A DNA stretch of 64,000 bases from assembly GCA_903825315.1 (NCBI GenBank), contig CAIKAD010000002.1:1-64000 (forward strand), written 5' to 3'. Made by a program: the position numbers and the translations under genes. Positions 9,091-47,561 of this stretch are shown in pieces. The stretch is from an uncultured Candidatus Peregrinibacteria bacterium (lineage in GTDB: Bacteria; Patescibacteriota; Gracilibacteria; Peribacterales; Peribacteraceae). Below the pieces are notes generated by a model. The model searched no databases, was not told the DNA's origin, and saw only the letters and a program-made list of their open reading frames with translations. The number at the start of each line of letters is the position of its first letter. Within the stretch, counting starts at the first letter, position 1.

Positions 9091-11139
9091 ATGAAGCTCA
9101 CTACACCGCTCTCGGCAGCTCTCCGCACAACGCAGGACCACATCAAAGCCTTGGAAGGGATGGAGATACGCACAGTCCAAGACCTTCTCCTGTACCTGCC
9201 GCGCGCCCACGAGGACCTAAGCCAGATGGAAACCATCGCTTCCGCGCCCCTCGATCAGAGAGTAACAATTCGCGGAACGGTGGAGCATCTCAAGCTCGTA
9301 CGCATCCGCGGTGGCAAGCAGATGGTAACAGCGAAGTTCCTGGATTCAGACGGGACCACTGCCGATGTCGTATGGTTTAACCAGCCGCACATTAAAAGGA
9401 TGCTGGAGGATGGATCCGACGTTGTCCTCACGGGCAAGCTGACCATTAAGGGTTCCAAAGTAGTCTTCCAAAGCCCGCAGTTTGAGAAGGAGGGAAGCAA
9501 GCCGCTCGTACACAGCGGTCGTCTCGTCCCGGTCTACCCGCAGCACGAAATGATCAACACCCGATGGCTACGCGAAAAGATGATGCTCATCAAGGATGCC
9601 ATCGCTGACATACCGGAAACATTGCCGCCGGATGTGATCACGGAAGAGAACCTTGTCAGCCGGCAGGAGATGATTCGTTCACTTCATTTTCCTGACAAAC
9701 CCGAAGACGTGGAGAAAGCGTTTGAGCGCCTGGCATTCGAACGGATGTATGATATGCAAAAGGAAGCACTGGAACGGAAGAAGGAATGGCAGGGCACAAC
9801 GCAGGATCGCCTGAAAACACCCATGGACGTGGAACTGATCCGCGCGCTGTTTGCATCTTTGCATTTTACGCCTACCGCCAGTCAGAAGATCGCCATTTAC
9901 GAAATCCTCCGAGACATGGAGAAAGACGTGCCGATGTCCCGGCTTTTGGAGGGAGACGTTGGCTCCGGCAAGACGCTCGTTGCCGTGAGTATTATGGCCA
10001 ATGCATTGCGGCATGGAGGCCAGTGCGCGCTGATGGTTCCGACTGAAGTACTTGCACGCCAACACACGGAAGGCATTACCAAAATCCTCTTCAACTTTCA
10101 TACCTATCTGCAGTCACAGAAGACGTACGATGCGGTGAATTTCCGGCTTCCGTCCGTCGCGCTTCTTACGGGGTCCACGCCACGTGCGGAAGCAGACGCG
10201 ATGAAGAGGAGTCTCGCCTCGGGACTCATCGACATCGTCGTTGGGACACATGCGCTGATCGAGGAAACCGTCCGGTTCAAGGACTTACGGCTTGTCATTG
10301 TGGATGAGCAACATCGGTTCGGCGTGGTGCAGCGCGAACGATTACGGGAGAAGGGGAGTCCGCACTTCCTTTCCATGACGGCAACTCCCATCCCGCGGAC
10401 CCTTGCTCTCACGGCATATGGCGACCACGATCTTTCCGTCCTGCTCGAAAAACCCGGCCGTCGCCAACCGATCCACACCAAGGTCGTAGCGCCTTCAGAT
10501 CGCCACGTCATCGAGAAATTCATTGACCATCAGATTGATGAAGGTCGCCAGGTCTTTGTCATCTGTCCGCTCATTACGGAAAGCGATGAACTGGCGGAAG
10601 TACGGAACGTAGAGCAGGAAACTAAAAGACTCCGGGAAGCTTTTCCGCGCCGCACCATCACCATGCTCCACGGTAAGCTTTCACCACAGGAAAAGCAGTC
10701 GATTATGCACGCATTCCGAGCCAAAGAGTCCGACATACTCGTTTCCACGTCGGTTATCGAAGTGGGGATTGACGTCCCCAACGCGACCATGATTTTGATC
10801 GAGGGTGCGGAGCGCTTCGGACTCGCGCAGCTCCATCAGCTCCGTGGTCGTGTGGGACGCGGGGAACACAAGAGCCATTGCTTTCTCTTTACAACACAGC
10901 AGACACAGGCTTCGTCTCCGCGCCTCAAAGCTATGGAGCAATATGACTCCGGCTTTATGCTTGCCGAGATGGATTTGCGTCTGCGCGGCCCCGGTGAAAT
11001 ATTCGGCACGCGCCAGAGCGGCGTCCCGGATTCCTTCCTCCAAAGCATGCTTAAGCCCGAACTCATCGCCCGTGCGCGCCGGGCAGTGGAGAAGGCGCTG
11101 TATCCGGAAATGAAGGAGAAGGTGAGGCCTGCACTCTGA
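9091..11139 (+). CDS. recG: ATP-dependent DNA helicase RecG
   Basis: RecG remodels stalled replication forks and Holliday junctions. The 682-residue protein has the N-terminal wedge/OB domain (about 50-160, QRVTIRGTVEHLKLVRIRGG). The helicase core follows, with LLEGDVGSGKTLVA (Walker A), VIVDEQHRFGV (DExH-type motif II), MTATPIPRTLALT (motif III), then TSVIEVGIDVPNATMI and QLRGRVGRGEHKSHC (motifs V and VI). Near the end MDLRLRGPGEIFGTRQSG is the RecG-specific TRG region. Length is normal. A TATACT box at 9076-9081 ends 9 bases before the ATG, so the mRNA is probably nearly leaderless. An inverted repeat follows the stop. Confidence 0.97.
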   Translation: MKLTTPLSAALRTTQDHIKALEGMEIRTVQDLLLYLPRAHEDLSQMETIASAPLDQRVTIRGTVEHLKLVRIRGGKQMVTAKFLDSDGTTADVVWFNQPHIKRMLEDGSDVVLTGKLTIKGSKVVFQSPQFEKEGSKPLVHSGRLVPVYPQHEMINTRWLREKMMLIKDAIADIPETLPPDVITEENLVSRQEMIRSLHFPDKPEDVEKAFERLAFERMYDMQKEALERKKEWQGTTQDRLKTPMDVELIRALFASLHFTPTASQKIAIYEILRDMEKDVPMSRLLEGDVGSGKTLVAVSIMANALRHGGQCALMVPTEVLARQHTEGITKILFNFHTYLQSQKTYDAVNFRLPSVALLTGSTPRAEADAMKRSLASGLIDIVVGTHALIEETVRFKDLRLVIVDEQHRFGVVQRERLREKGSPHFLSMTATPIPRTLALTAYGDHDLSVLLEKPGRRQPIHTKVVAPSDRHVIEKFIDHQIDEGRQVFVICPLITESDELAEVRNVEQETKRLREAFPRRTITMLHGKLSPQEKQSIMHAFRAKESDILVSTSVIEVGIDVPNATMILIEGAERFGLAQLHQLRGRVGRGEHKSHCFLFTTQQTQASSPRLKAMEQYDSGFMLAEMDLRLRGPGEIFGTRQSGVPDSFLQSMLKPELIARARRAVEKALYPEMKEKVRPAL

Positions 11140-11150
11140 GGAATATGGAG

Positions 11151-11193
11151 TCTGGTATTCGAATTTAGAATGCCCTGTTTTCCTTATACCAGA
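11151..11193. terminator. Inverted repeat downstream of recG
   Basis: TCTGGTAT at 11151-11158 pairs with ATACCAGA at 11186-11193, with further weak complementarity outside. It lies 11 bases after the recG stop. No T-run follows directly, so termination is plausible rather than certain. Confidence 0.4.
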
Positions 11194-11224: not shown

Positions 11225-11252
11225 TTGACTCTTCTTCTACAACAGCTACCCT
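11225..11252 (+). promoter_or_regulatory. Promoter of the leader peptide
   Basis: TTGACT, 16 bp, TACCCT, then 9 bases to the ATG at 11262. The spacing to the start codon matches the leaderless promoters of other genes in this window. Confidence 0.55.
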
Positions 11253-11261
11253 AAGTACGCA

Positions 11262-11351
11262 ATGATCGTCCTCTCGCTCCTCGCAGGCGCCGCCATGATG
11301 ATGACAATGATGCACATGCCCCTTTGCGAGGCGGTCGTGAGACAGAGATGA
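11262..11351 (+). CDS. Short Met-rich peptide, candidate attenuator leader peptide
   Basis: A 29-codon ORF whose product starts MIVLSLLAGAAMMMTMMHMP and ends in TGA. Seven of the 29 residues are Met; six of them fall in codons 12-19. Its start codon lies 9 bases after a plausible -10. The ORF contains two segments of a four-segment set that could form alternative hairpins with the terminator at 11376-11398. The arrangement resembles amino-acid attenuators such as trp or his, but with Met codons. Alternatively it is a tiny hydrophobic membrane peptide, or not translated. Confidence 0.45.
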   Translation: MIVLSLLAGAAMMMTMMHMPLCEAVVRQR

Positions 11352-11398
11352 TCATCCTTCACTCACGGAACCAGGCCTCGCAGGAAAGCGGGGTTTTT
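11279..11398 (+). promoter_or_regulatory. Candidate transcription attenuator with mutually exclusive stems
   Basis: Four short segments alternate: CCTCGC at 11279-11284 (1), GCGAGG at 11326-11331 (2), CCTCGC at 11376-11381 (3) and GCGGGG at 11388-11393 (4), followed by TTTTT. Segment 2 can pair with 1 or with 3; segment 3 can pair with 4 to form the terminator. Segments 1 and 2 lie inside the Met-rich leader ORF, on either side of its Met codons. The gene at 11422 starts 23 bases after the T-run. Confidence 0.45.
11376..11398 (+). terminator. Intrinsic terminator just upstream of the 11422 gene
   Basis: A 6-bp GC-rich stem (CCTCGC / GCGGGG, one T-G pair) with loop AGGAAA, followed immediately by TTTTT. 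It sits between the leader ORF and the next gene, so it must be bypassed if both share one promoter. Confidence 0.65.
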
Positions 11399-11421
11399 CA
11401 GATTTATTCCTCCCTTCTCTC

Positions 11422-12078
11422 ATGTTACTCAGCGCGCAACGCCAGGCAATCGAGCACCTCTGCGATGTCGAAAAGCCGACATCGATCCCCGGCGATCGCG
11501 AGATGAACGTTGTCGATGCGTTCACGGATGATCTCCGTGTGGTCTATCCCATAGGAGAAACGACTGCTCACACCAGGAAAGGCCTTGTAAAGCTACTCGT
11601 GTATTCTTCAAGGCCGCCAGCTGTTCCATATACACCGCAGTACGGCGAGTACGCATATGCGTGTCTTCTCTACAGGACTTCCCCCGACGCACTTCAACAA
11701 CGCAAAACGGTCAAAGAATCCGAACGAATTCATAACCTCACTTCGGGCCACGGAGAACCGGAACCGGAGGAAGGTCTTCTCACAGTAGAACAATTTCCTT
11801 CACCAATAGAGACGGACAAGCAGTGGCTGGAGCCCACTACCTGGGACCAAAAAGAAAAGGAAAACGACCGGCACATTTTCTGGTTTGCAGGAGTGATGAT
11901 CGATGACCGAGAGCCAAATGTTCCGCAAACATTGGATATGCGCGAGAAGCAGCGCCAGGAACTTTCCCGTGTCCCGCGACTTCAGAACCATCTGGAACCG
12001 CTCCTGATCCTCTCCGTTACAAAAGACAGAGCCTTTGCCATCCTCAGTGACAATCCCTACTCCTACGCGGACATGTAG
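11422..12078 (+). CDS. Hypothetical protein
   Basis: A 218-residue soluble protein without signal peptide or membrane helix. It begins MLLSAQRQAIEHLCDVEKPT and contains a stretch FWFAGVMIDDREPNVPQTLD and a C-terminal LEPLLILSVTKDRAFAILSDNPYS. It is rich in Glu, Pro and Arg. I do not recognise a family or catalytic motif. The ATG follows a strong pyrimidine tract (ATTCCTCCCTTCTCTC), the common start context here. It lies directly downstream of a terminator and possible attenuator, and 98 bases upstream of the next gene on the same strand. Confidence 0.65.
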   Translation: MLLSAQRQAIEHLCDVEKPTSIPGDREMNVVDAFTDDLRVVYPIGETTAHTRKGLVKLLVYSSRPPAVPYTPQYGEYAYACLLYRTSPDALQQRKTVKESERIHNLTSGHGEPEPEEGLLTVEQFPSPIETDKQWLEPTTWDQKEKENDRHIFWFAGVMIDDREPNVPQTLDMREKQRQELSRVPRLQNHLEPLLILSVTKDRAFAILSDNPYSYADM

Positions 12079-12176
12079 GATACAGGTTCCGACGGATGGG
12101 ATTCTGGATGCAAAGAATTGCCTTTCTTCGCTCTTTTGACACTGGTAGACTTCTTTTGCCGTTTCTCCCATTACCC

Positions 12177-12836
12177 ATGGCCGACCAGACCAATCCTCCG
12201 CAACCCCCTCCGCCGCCTCGTCCCGGTGATTCCGTTCCCACAGGAGGCCTGGATCCATCTCAAGTTTTTGCCGCTCCTCCTGCTCCTCCTGCCGCTCAGC
12301 CGGCAGTACAGCAAGCTGGCCAGGGTGGACAGACGGGAGACGCAGCCGCCACACCCATGAAAGACACAAGTCCTCCTCCCCCTCCTCCCGGCGTTGCAGC
12401 AACGAAGGAGATGGGATACGACGAAGAGGACATTAAGATTCTTGGGCAGGTGGGCAATTACCGGTTTGGAAGCATTGCCAACGCACTTACTAACAGCGAT
12501 ATCGTCGTCCCCGCCCATCCGGAGACCACGTTCGACCAGGAAAGATTTTTAACGCTTTTGCGCGGGAGCATTTCACTCACGCGAGACGAGAAGTGGCGCA
12601 TCATCCAAGCCGTCCCCAAGCTTAGCCAGTTCCAGATTGACGAGCTCCAGAAGATCCTCCAGGAGGAGAGACAGAAGTTTTCTGAGCTTTCCCCCAAGCA
12701 CCTTCTGCAACTCATGAAACTGGAGCAGAAGCACAGCGAGGATTGGAAGGATCTGCAATCCGTCATGCGCCAGAAAGGTGTGAAAGAAGAAGAAGCATCG
12801 CAAGCAGACGAAATCCGGAAGCAGCTGGGTCTCTGA
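12177..12836 (+). CDS. Proline-rich N-terminus plus helical C-terminal domain, unknown function
   Basis: The 219-residue product has a low-complexity N-terminal third rich in Pro, Gln and Ala (PPQPPPPPRPGDSVP and similar). A structured domain follows: DEEDIKILGQVGNYRFGSIA, then FLTLLRGSISLTRDEKWRIIQ, then a long charged helix (QIDELQKILQEERQKF) and LLQLMKLEQKHSEDWKDL. I do not recognise the family. The ATG at 12177 was chosen over one 27 codons upstream because it follows a pyrimidine tract (GCCGTTTCTCCCATTACCC) and avoids an unlikely N-terminus. It probably shares a transcript with the 11422 gene. Confidence 0.7.
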   Translation: MADQTNPPQPPPPPRPGDSVPTGGLDPSQVFAAPPAPPAAQPAVQQAGQGGQTGDAAATPMKDTSPPPPPPGVAATKEMGYDEEDIKILGQVGNYRFGSIANALTNSDIVVPAHPETTFDQERFLTLLRGSISLTRDEKWRIIQAVPKLSQFQIDELQKILQEERQKFSELSPKHLLQLMKLEQKHSEDWKDLQSVMRQKGVKEEEASQADEIRKQLGL

Positions 12837-44480: not shown

Positions 44481-45425
44481 TTATTTACTGCTCAACACCT
44501 TACACACCCGATCCACCTCCGTCTTCGATCCGATGATAATCGGCGTCCGCTGGTCAGTAGCAGTAATCATGATGTCCATGATGGCATCTTTTCCGTTGCT
44601 CGAAGACCCACCAGCCTGCTCCATGAGGAAGGAGAACGGACCGCATTCAAAGACAAGACGCAGTTTACCCTGCGGATACTTGGAACCGCCGACATTGGCA
44701 AAAACCCCCTGCCCCTTACTGATGATGTGGTGAATATCCGCCACCATCGCGCCGGAATACCGCAGCGTGAGCTTTTCATCGAGCCAGATGTTCATCATGT
44801 TACGGTAGGGAGGCGTGTCGACAACGGCTCTCAGGTTGCCCGGGCTGTAATTCTTTGCGGCATCCGCCACACCCAGGTTCTCGCGGAGAAGGATGAACTC
44901 GCCCACCTCATTGAGAATGAATTCATGCACGCCCTTTCCTATGGTGTAGACAAGAAGCGTACGCGGCCCATAGATGATGTAGAGAGCTGCAACCTGTTCA
45001 CGCGGCCGCCTCCCAATGATCGTGTTACCCTCGTAAATGCCGAAAATGGAACCTATTGCAAAGTTGGCATCCACAAGAGACGAACCGTCGAGCGGATCGA
45101 AGACAACGGCGTAAGGGTTCCGGGATTCGATCTCCACAACATCCTCCATCTCTTCCGAAGAAAAGCAGGAAACGAGCCGACTCTCCCAAAGGTTCTGCTG
45201 GATGATCTGGTCGCTGAGCACATCCAGCTTAATCTGCTCCTCCCCAAACTGGTTTTTGGTCCCCGCGAGCCCGGCTTCCGTAGTGCGGATGGCAAACTGG
45301 ATATACTTTGCCGCGCGTCCGATGTCATTAATCAAATGCCTGAGCTGATCCGGCGCGCCGCTGCGATAGAGATGCGCATTGAGGGAAACCCGCGACGGTA
45401 CAGGACAATAGGGGGCAGGAGGCAT
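44481..45425 (-). CDS. fbp: Fructose-1,6-bisphosphatase class I
   Basis: FBPase hydrolyses fructose-1,6-P2 in gluconeogenesis. The 314-residue protein has the sugar-phosphatase fold: CFSSEEMEDVVEIE (metal ligands), VVFDPLDGSSLVDANFAIGS (DPLDGSS signature), LRYSGAMVADIHHIISKGQGVF, and KLRLVFECGPFSFLMEQAGG with the Glu of the metal site. The first 20 residues are poorly conserved. It lies 18 bases downstream of the GapB-type GAPDH gene, so the two are probably cotranscribed as a gluconeogenic pair supplying hexose phosphate for GlmS, OtsAB and glycosyltransferases. Confidence 0.95.
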   Translation of the reverse strand: MPPAPYCPVPSRVSLNAHLYRSGAPDQLRHLINDIGRAAKYIQFAIRTTEAGLAGTKNQFGEEQIKLDVLSDQIIQQNLWESRLVSCFSSEEMEDVVEIESRNPYAVVFDPLDGSSLVDANFAIGSIFGIYEGNTIIGRRPREQVAALYIIYGPRTLLVYTIGKGVHEFILNEVGEFILLRENLGVADAAKNYSPGNLRAVVDTPPYRNMMNIWLDEKLTLRYSGAMVADIHHIISKGQGVFANVGGSKYPQGKLRLVFECGPFSFLMEQAGGSSSNGKDAIMDIMITATDQRTPIIIGSKTEVDRVCKVLSSK

Positions 45426-46502: not shown

Positions 46503-47561
46503 TCACCCAAATATTCCCAATACAATACCTAAAAACGCAACGAAAGCCCCAATGATCCACATGCGCATCGTCACTTTGCTCTCTCCCCAGCCCTTGGCCT
46601 CAAAATGATGATGGATCGGAGCGGCAACAAAGACTTTCTTGCCTCCACGGAGTTTTTTGCTCGTTAGCTGGATGATCACGGACAGCGCCTCAATGACAAA
46701 AACAAACCCGATGAGGGGAAGGACGAGTACCTGGTCAATCATCATGGCAATGACGCCCAGCGCTCCGCCGAGCGCCAACGCTCCCGTATCCCCCATAAAG
46801 AACAGTGCCGGCGGGACGTTATGCCAGAGAAACGCGGCAACGGCTGCTGACGCCACACCGCAGAATCCCGCAAGAATGAAGAGACCTTTGATGTACGCAA
46901 GAACGCCGAATGATCCAAACGCAATCACCAGTAATCCTCCAGCAAGACCGTCGAGACCATCGGTAAAGTTCACCGCGTTCGCCGTGGCCACAATGATGAA
47001 CATGAAGATGGGAATGTACCACGCTCCTACCATCCAAGCCCCCATGAAGGGTATATGTATTTCGTTGTATCCCAGCTTAAAGTAGAACCAGAGCGCCGCA
47101 GCGCCACTAATGAGAATAAGAGAGAGAATCTTCGGCAGTGCATTGAGCCCCCGTTTTTTTCCCACGCCGATAATGTTCAAGTAATCATCTACCGCACCGA
47201 GCACCCCCAGGGAGATAAGAACGAAGAGCGGAAGGTACACTTGTCCGCGCTGCAGAAGGGAGTTTGGGACCCATCCACCGAAGGAGAGAAGGCGAGAAAA
47301 CAGCACGGTTAGGACAATTGCTCCCCAGATGAGGATCCCCCCCATGGTCGGCGTGCCCTGCTTCTTCTCATGGTAAGTTCGGAAGATGGTGGGATCGCGC
47401 CCATCCATTGTCTCCACACGCAATTGCTTGCCCATCCTATTCTTCTTAAGAAACTGCACGAAGGAAGGTGTGAGTGCAAGACCGACGAAGAAAGCGAATG
47501 CGGCGTATCCCAGAATGGCCACGAGTGAAAGCTCCGGCCGGACAGGGGGAATAATGGGCAT
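46503..47561 (-). CDS. mraY: Phospho-N-acetylmuramoyl-pentapeptide-transferase
   Basis: MraY transfers phospho-MurNAc-pentapeptide to undecaprenyl phosphate to make lipid I. The 352-residue protein has about ten membrane helices and the family motifs: GTPTMGGILIWGAIV, GAVDDYLNIIGVGKKRGL (DDD-type catalytic loop), NAVNFTDGLDGLAGGLLV, and the C-terminal HHHFEAKGWGESKVTMRMWI (HHH loop). All expected catalytic Asp and His residues are visible. It is not in a dcw cluster here: gapB lies 48 bases downstream, dnaB 120 bases upstream. It fits with glmS and the PBP in a normal peptidoglycan pathway. Confidence 0.96.
   Translation of the reverse strand: MPIIPPVRPELSLVAILGYAAFAFFVGLALTPSFVQFLKKNRMGKQLRVETMDGRDPTIFRTYHEKKQGTPTMGGILIWGAIVLTVLFSRLLSFGGWVPNSLLQRGQVYLPLFVLISLGVLGAVDDYLNIIGVGKKRGLNALPKILSLILISGAAALWFYFKLGYNEIHIPFMGAWMVGAWYIPIFMFIIVATANAVNFTDGLDGLAGGLLVIAFGSFGVLAYIKGLFILAGFCGVASAAVAAFLWHNVPPALFFMGDTGALALGGALGVIAMMIDQVLVLPLIGFVFVIEALSVIIQLTSKKLRGGKKVFVAAPIHHHFEAKGWGESKVTMRMWIIGAFVAFLGIVLGIFG

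Follow-up and report, generated by a model that had tools for sequence, protein, structure and literature searches.

Textbooks present ribosome-mediated attenuation as the way in which genes for tryptophan, histidine, threonine, phenylalanine and the branched-chain amino acids are controlled. Methionine genes are known for riboswitches, T-boxes and repressors, and to our knowledge almost no gene regulation has been worked out in the Patescibacteria division. A conserved attenuator with methionine codons would fill the methionine gap among the attenuation-controlled amino acids. In the Actinobacteria, Cys and Leu leader peptides have been described (PMC1262725), and in Streptomyces lividans a leader peptide, metL, was proposed before metNIQ (PMC8079986). 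A comparative survey of Actinobacteria found no conserved RNA regulatory structure or leader of this kind before methionine operons (PMC1262725). No firmly described Met attenuator was found in the open-licence literature apart from the S. lividans proposal, older subscription papers possibly having been missed, and the open-licence literature searched yielded nothing on attenuation in the Patescibacteria group.

The locus considered here lies in a Patescibacteria genome of 1.29 Mb, within a 64,000-nucleotide stretch of DNA that was analysed whole and is referred to below as the window. The gene order is miaA (7494), recG (9091-11139), a leader (11225-11398), an open reading frame at 11422-12078 and a proline-rich ORF at 12096-12836. 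The start of the last, a conserved protein, is probably misplaced; its relatives begin at the equivalent of window position 12177 (MADQTNPPQPPPPPRPGD...). An initial annotation had proposed a Met-codon attenuator between recG and 11422, and the promoter, the 29-codon ORF, the Met run, the four pairing segments, the TTTTT and the ATG at 11422 are all present where it had placed them. The features are the following:

11154 to 11174, + strand: terminator-like hairpin 3' of recG, parting recG transcription from the leader (consensus scan only)
11225 to 11252, + strand: promoter-like site TTGACT-16-TACCCT (from sequence; TTGACA-16/17-TAnnnT at the equivalent place in nearly all relatives)
11262 to 11351, + strand: putative leader peptide ORF of 29 codons, MIVLSLLAGAAMMMTMMHMPLCEAVVRQR, beginning 9 nt past the -10 box (mostly 6-9 nt in relatives)
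11279 to 11284, + strand: segment 1, CCTCGC, able to pair with segment 2 (full-leader fold; weak support across relatives)
11295 to 11318, + strand: Met control codons, codons 12-19, reading M M M T M M H M (MMMxMMM in relatives)
11325 to 11331, + strand: segment 2, TGCGAGG, within the leader ORF (GCGAGG at 11326-11331; relatives' alignment)
11333 to 11341, + strand: 5' half of the inner antiterminator helix, GGTCGTGAG (fold and relatives)
11349 to 11351, + strand: stop codon of the leader ORF, 17 nt past segment 2 (mostly 13 nt in relatives)
11362 to 11372, + strand: 3' half of the inner antiterminator helix, CTCACGGAACC (fold and relatives)
11376 to 11382, + strand: segment 3, CCTCGCA, common to antiterminator and terminator (CCTCGC at 11376-11381)
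11388 to 11398, + strand: segment 4, GCGGGG (11388-11393), and U-run TTTTT (11394-11398), a predicted intrinsic terminator with segment 3 (-12.5 kcal/mol, z -3.7)
11422 to 12078, + strand: downstream, putatively regulated gene, encoding a 218-aa orphan protein with no convincing relative and no domain match

The preferred reading of this arrangement, with a probability of roughly 0.8, is a ribosome-mediated transcription attenuator with methionine control codons. The comparative sequence evidence indicates that a conserved RNA element, widespread in Patescibacteria, has one of its copies in the leader at 11225-11398. A first covariance model, built from four leaders, detected it in 41 of 74 genomes of the window's family at E<=0.1. 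Among 353 genomes of the class, a second model, built from 32 leaders, detected it in 82 at E<=0.01, spread over many families. In both cases there is about one copy per genome; a few genomes from other classes also carry it. Some of the weakest covariance-model matches are due to chance, and those in G044, G212, G079, G076, G083:C36, G065:C23, G544 and G466, which lack either a Met run or a sensible downstream gene, were dropped. Searching 84,980 species genomes with a strict DNA pattern gave 19 records, against some 0.001 expected by chance according to the report author's own arithmetic. All 19 belong to the Patescibacteria (Peribacteria, Peregrinibacteria, Magasanikbacteria, Uhrbacteria and Sungbacteria) save one titled Kiritimatiellales, L219 (JAIPIN010000020.1), which is probably a mislabelled bin, as it is equal in length to G090:C33 of the window's own family. 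Conservation in relatives was the check set for the original proposal, and the leader passes it: what recurs is the Met run together with segments 2, 3 and 4, as well as the terminator, the promoter-near start and the stop spacing. Within the window's genus, G003 has a homologous leader at the equivalent site after recG, followed by a different gene of 64 aa. In G001 and G002 of the same genus neither a leader nor a gene stands at this site; the proline-rich gene lies about 85 bp after recG.

Leader anatomy was compared across 64 leaders. Nearly all relatives have a TTGACA-16/17-TAnnnT promoter-like pair followed by a GTG or ATG start, mostly 6-9 nt beyond the -10 box. The window conforms in layout, with TTGACT at 11225-11230, a 16-nt spacer and TACCCT at 11247-11252, 9 nt before the ATG at 11262. 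TACCCT is a poor -10 box, and a generic promoter scan of the leader region called no promoter. The closeness of start codon and promoter implies that the mRNA probably begins at or near the start codon, and from this spacing the peptide is inferred to be translated, probably, from a leaderless or nearly leaderless message. Its layout is 0-20 free residues, a Met run (typically MMMxMMM, nine codons holding four to seven Met) and a brief tail. Insertions and deletions in the run comprise whole codons and its interruptions are whole-codon replacements, as expected for a translated sequence, translation itself being inferred. One mark of trp- and his-type attenuators, a leader ORF with a run of codons for one amino acid, is therefore met, translation not having been observed. 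Six ATG in eight codons occur only once in the 64 kb when both strands are scanned. Two further sites in the window, 44560-44569 and 46987-46996, hold at least four ATG in eight codons; the covariance model found no second leader in the window's genome, so these are probably Met-rich coding sequence.

Segment 2 reads GCGAGG, or GCGAAG outside the window's family, and is located within the leader ORF, not past its stop codon, which corrects the initial annotation. The stop lies 13 nt past it in 37 of the 54 leaders that could be measured and 16 nt past it in most others; judging from the usual ribosome footprint, a distance of 13 nt would let a ribosome at the stop codon cover segment 2. The window has 17 nt and a different frame across segment 2, indicating that what is conserved is the spacing and not the peptide. 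Could the peptide nevertheless be the signal? The leader might be translated and the ribosome arrested by the Met-rich nascent chain, or by some other cue, without any shortage of Met-tRNA, in which case the switch would sense something else. The run is indeed interrupted in the pattern MMMxMMM, and RGG, RGR and RGQ recur after it. However, the recurring RG is encoded by segment 2, which RNA pairing requires anyway, segment 2 is read in another frame in the window, G318 and G263, the position of x and the residues past segment 2 vary freely, and the regulated genes described below make or release methionine, so arrest by the peptide seems quite unlikely.

The two remaining structural marks of a trp/his-type attenuator, an intrinsic 3:4 terminator with a U-run before the gene and a mutually exclusive 2:3 antiterminator, are both met in the predicted folds, and 32 leaders of the family fold into the same two alternatives. 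In the window the 2:3 fold reaches -27.8 kcal/mol (z -2.7; 3 of 200 shuffles equally good) and the 3:4 hairpin -12.5 kcal/mol (z -3.7; 1 of 200). The inner antiterminator helix pairs CGTGAG (11336-11341) with CTCACG (11362-11367) and GGT (11333-11335) with ACC (11370-11372). Across relatives its sequence varies (AGTTGG/CCAACT, CAGGTT/AACCTG, CCGGAT/ATCCGG and TGGTTC/GAACCA, besides CGTGAG/CTCACG in the window) while its pairing is kept in most genomes, with a summed z of -8.5 against dinucleotide shuffles and a z below -1 in 66% of leaders. Where segment 2 pairs with the segment 3 region, the summed z is -19. These sums derive from related sequences and are not probabilities. The outer 2:3 helix varies little, which counts against the attenuator reading: 88% of its cells are paired, against 32-55% when it is slid by one to three columns, double changes occur in three of its eight pairs, and in G035 and G068 it is altered jointly with its partners.

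Segment 1 fares less well. Its pairing with segment 2 appears in the full-leader fold of the window, and across relatives there is only weak support from sequence for segment 2 pairing upstream of the Met run (mean z -0.88, control -0.21). The four-segment logic originally put forward, and the covariation it implied, thus hold in part: 2:3 and 3:4 are borne out in relatives, the inner helix changing its letters and staying paired and the outer one varying little, and 1:2 is not firmly so. The geometry suggests that the main competition is between the ribosome and segment 2. The initial worry that stems of 6 bp could be fortuitous no longer stands, as 2:3 is extended by the inner helix, recurs in relatives and, like 3:4, beats shuffled sequence. 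The stems first noticed were only 6 bp long, and this is all that speaks for a chance adjacency of a Met-rich ORF and a terminator; conservation of the leader in dozens of genomes, with compensating changes and with methionine genes downstream, refutes it and leaves it next to no credence.

Another rival reading is a riboswitch or T-box that binds SAM, methionine or tRNA directly, the ORF being incidental. Such elements are the usual RNA control of methionine genes, and a SAM riboswitch adjoins the leader at one locus. Yet an Rfam search of the window leader returned no family even at E<=10, apart from a chance snoRNA, and the SAM riboswitch and T-box covariance models had no match in it. What is conserved is the Met codons and the spacing of start and stop codons, with the inner helix free to vary in sequence, and direct ligand binding accordingly remains very improbable.

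The genes behind the leader in relatives connect it to methionine. Beyond the window's family, what comes first after the leader is typically a methionine gene: by Pfam, a homocysteine S-methyltransferase (PF02574) in 13 loci, the homoserine O-succinyltransferase MetA (PF04204) in three, a Cys/Met PLP enzyme (PF01053) in one, where the closest NCBIfam model is O-succinylhomoserine sulfhydrylase, and a SAM hydroxide adenosyltransferase (SAM_HAT) in three. Only 26 copies of PF02574 exist in the 353 class genomes, and at least 14 of them come immediately after the leader; G243 has it as the second gene. MetA is present in 17 genomes and is preceded by the leader in G058, G221, G222 and G223, and by a weak-scoring one in G045, G323 and G319; in G224 the order is leader, methyltransferase, MetA. 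Two tandem Met leaders stand before a methyltransferase gene at L184 (G066:C29:5045-5296) and L185 (G027:C121:5091-5410), and in G066 homocitrate-synthase-like and aminotransferase-like genes come next. In the Magasanikbacteria locus L204 a SAM riboswitch (RF00162, 64.5 bits), which has a terminator-like hairpin of its own, lies 60 nt before the Met run and is directly followed by the Met leader (2491-2589 and 2359-2431, both on the - strand); next comes a gene in which a nucleotidyltransferase is joined to a MetE catalytic domain. This is apparently tandem SAM and Met-tRNA control, and riboswitch and MetE domain together are an independent sign of the leader's place in methionine control.

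In the window's own family, and in a handful of genomes beyond it, 19 of the first genes encode members of a divergent protein family, A4 (for example L088:1865-2791 and L106:1727-2761), in which residues N, A, R, F, Q, R, S, D and N are invariant. Pfam places a C-terminal SAM_HAT domain in it below cut-off only, but its structure is predicted with confidence (pLDDT 91.8) and its best 40 PDB matches all have the SAM hydrolase/chlorinase/fluorinase fold, so on the strength of the model A4 would be a divergent SAM-hydrolase-fold family, its activity not having been assayed. SAM hydroxide adenosyltransferases are enzymes that free methionine from SAM. About a dozen Peribacteria have, directly behind the leader, a protein of about 70 aa starting MVNILP or MVVLLP (A5; loci include L125:2415-2606, L103:1584-1814 and L108:4029-4226), and the gene after it resembles hisS in G018 and in several members of genus g28. 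Five members of the family, the window included, have unrelated orphans after the leader. The last mark of a trp/his-type attenuator, regulated genes in the pathway of the control-codon amino acid, is met in relatives, where the methionine and SAM genes are those that Met-codon attenuation predicts; the original reading is to that extent supported.

Together, these results suggest a model for how the attenuator would work. The analysis shows the parts and how they are conserved, together with the structure and the gene linkage; stalling, readthrough and the direction of the response are inferred, there being no transcript data and no bench test. Transcription would start at or near the leader start codon, and the peptide would be translated from a leaderless or nearly leaderless mRNA. 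With charged Met-tRNA plentiful, the ribosome would pass the Met codons and reach the stop codon, where it would cover segment 2, whose end lies 13-19 nt before the stop in most relatives and 17 nt before it in the window; with segment 2 covered, 3:4 would form and transcription would end at 11394-11398. With Met-tRNA scarce, the ribosome would pause on the Met run, whose first codon is some 30 nt before segment 2, and the long 2:3 antiterminator hairpin could form, letting transcription proceed into gene 11422. In relatives the same leader precedes genes that make methionine or free it from SAM, which points to a methionine-starvation switch, and the direction inferred from this linkage is a sensible one: more methionine when it is short.

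The gene at 11422 is itself an orphan. Like the regulated genes of relatives it starts 24 nt past the U-run, and it has 218 codons. Its protein has no convincing relative in the 74 family genomes or in the wider genome contigs searched (the best weak match, in G084, has E 5e-4, 19 bits and 23% identity) and no Pfam or NCBIfam match, and a single-sequence AlphaFold model was uninformative (pLDDT 30). Neither similarity to the SAM-hydrolase-like A4 family (hhalign probability 0.1%) nor kinship with the leader-linked G357 protein (E 0.1) is supported. The window genome has no PF02574, PF04204 or PF01887 match. With 11422 an orphan, the link to methionine rests on relatives; this lack of a shown link, the unknown first gene of about 70 aa in many family members, and the partly off-consensus window copy, with its weak -10 box, its stop 17 nt past segment 2 and its shifted frame, count against the attenuator reading.

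Could the window leader be a relic, functional in relatives and decaying here before an unrelated or non-coding ORF? Besides the orphan gene and the weak -10 box, it is suggestive that G001 and G002 of the same genus have no leader and carry a MetA gene instead. Yet the window copy has kept all four segments whole, along with the U-run, the Met run and the stop spacing, G003 retains the leader, and the ORF at 11422 runs for 218 codons from a start placed as in relatives, which makes decay unlikely without dismissing it. Rather more conceivable, and still speculative, is that the Met-codon attenuator is Patescibacteria-wide and sometimes in tandem with a SAM riboswitch, and that the Peribacteria orphans and 70-aa proteins, 11422 among them, are unrecognised methionine salvage or acquisition proteins that replaced an ancestral SAM hydrolase at the recG locus. 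The leader is also useful as an annotation tool, as it flags the divergent SAM-hydrolase family that Pfam does not recognise, and the orphan proteins, as candidate methionine genes.

How does the element compare with described systems? The SAM riboswitch (S box, RF00162) also terminates methionine genes prematurely and lies directly upstream of the leader in L204, but it binds SAM, requires no translation and has no match in the window leader; with a Met attenuator placed after such a riboswitch, a single gene could respond to the SAM pool as well as to charged tRNA. A Met T-box would likewise respond to uncharged Met-tRNA, but it binds the tRNA directly, and the window has no T-box match. Streptomyces lividans shares leaderless leader ORFs and a proposed methionine leader (PMC8079986); its metL (MSTTSDRTPATEATTTPGARCMCRRMCAF), unlike the Patescibacteria leader, has scattered Met only and, according to its authors, no typical terminator (PMC8079986). 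The trp, his, leu, thr, ilv and phe attenuators of E. coli and Salmonella (PMC1183508) are alike in having a short ORF rich in one amino acid, mutually exclusive 2:3 and 3:4 hairpins, an intrinsic terminator and downstream genes for the same amino acid. In contrast to them, the Patescibacteria leader has methionine codons and a start codon at or near the presumed transcription start, its segment 2 lies inside the ORF with the stop usually 13 nt later, its segment 1 is weakly supported, and its targets include SAM hydrolases.
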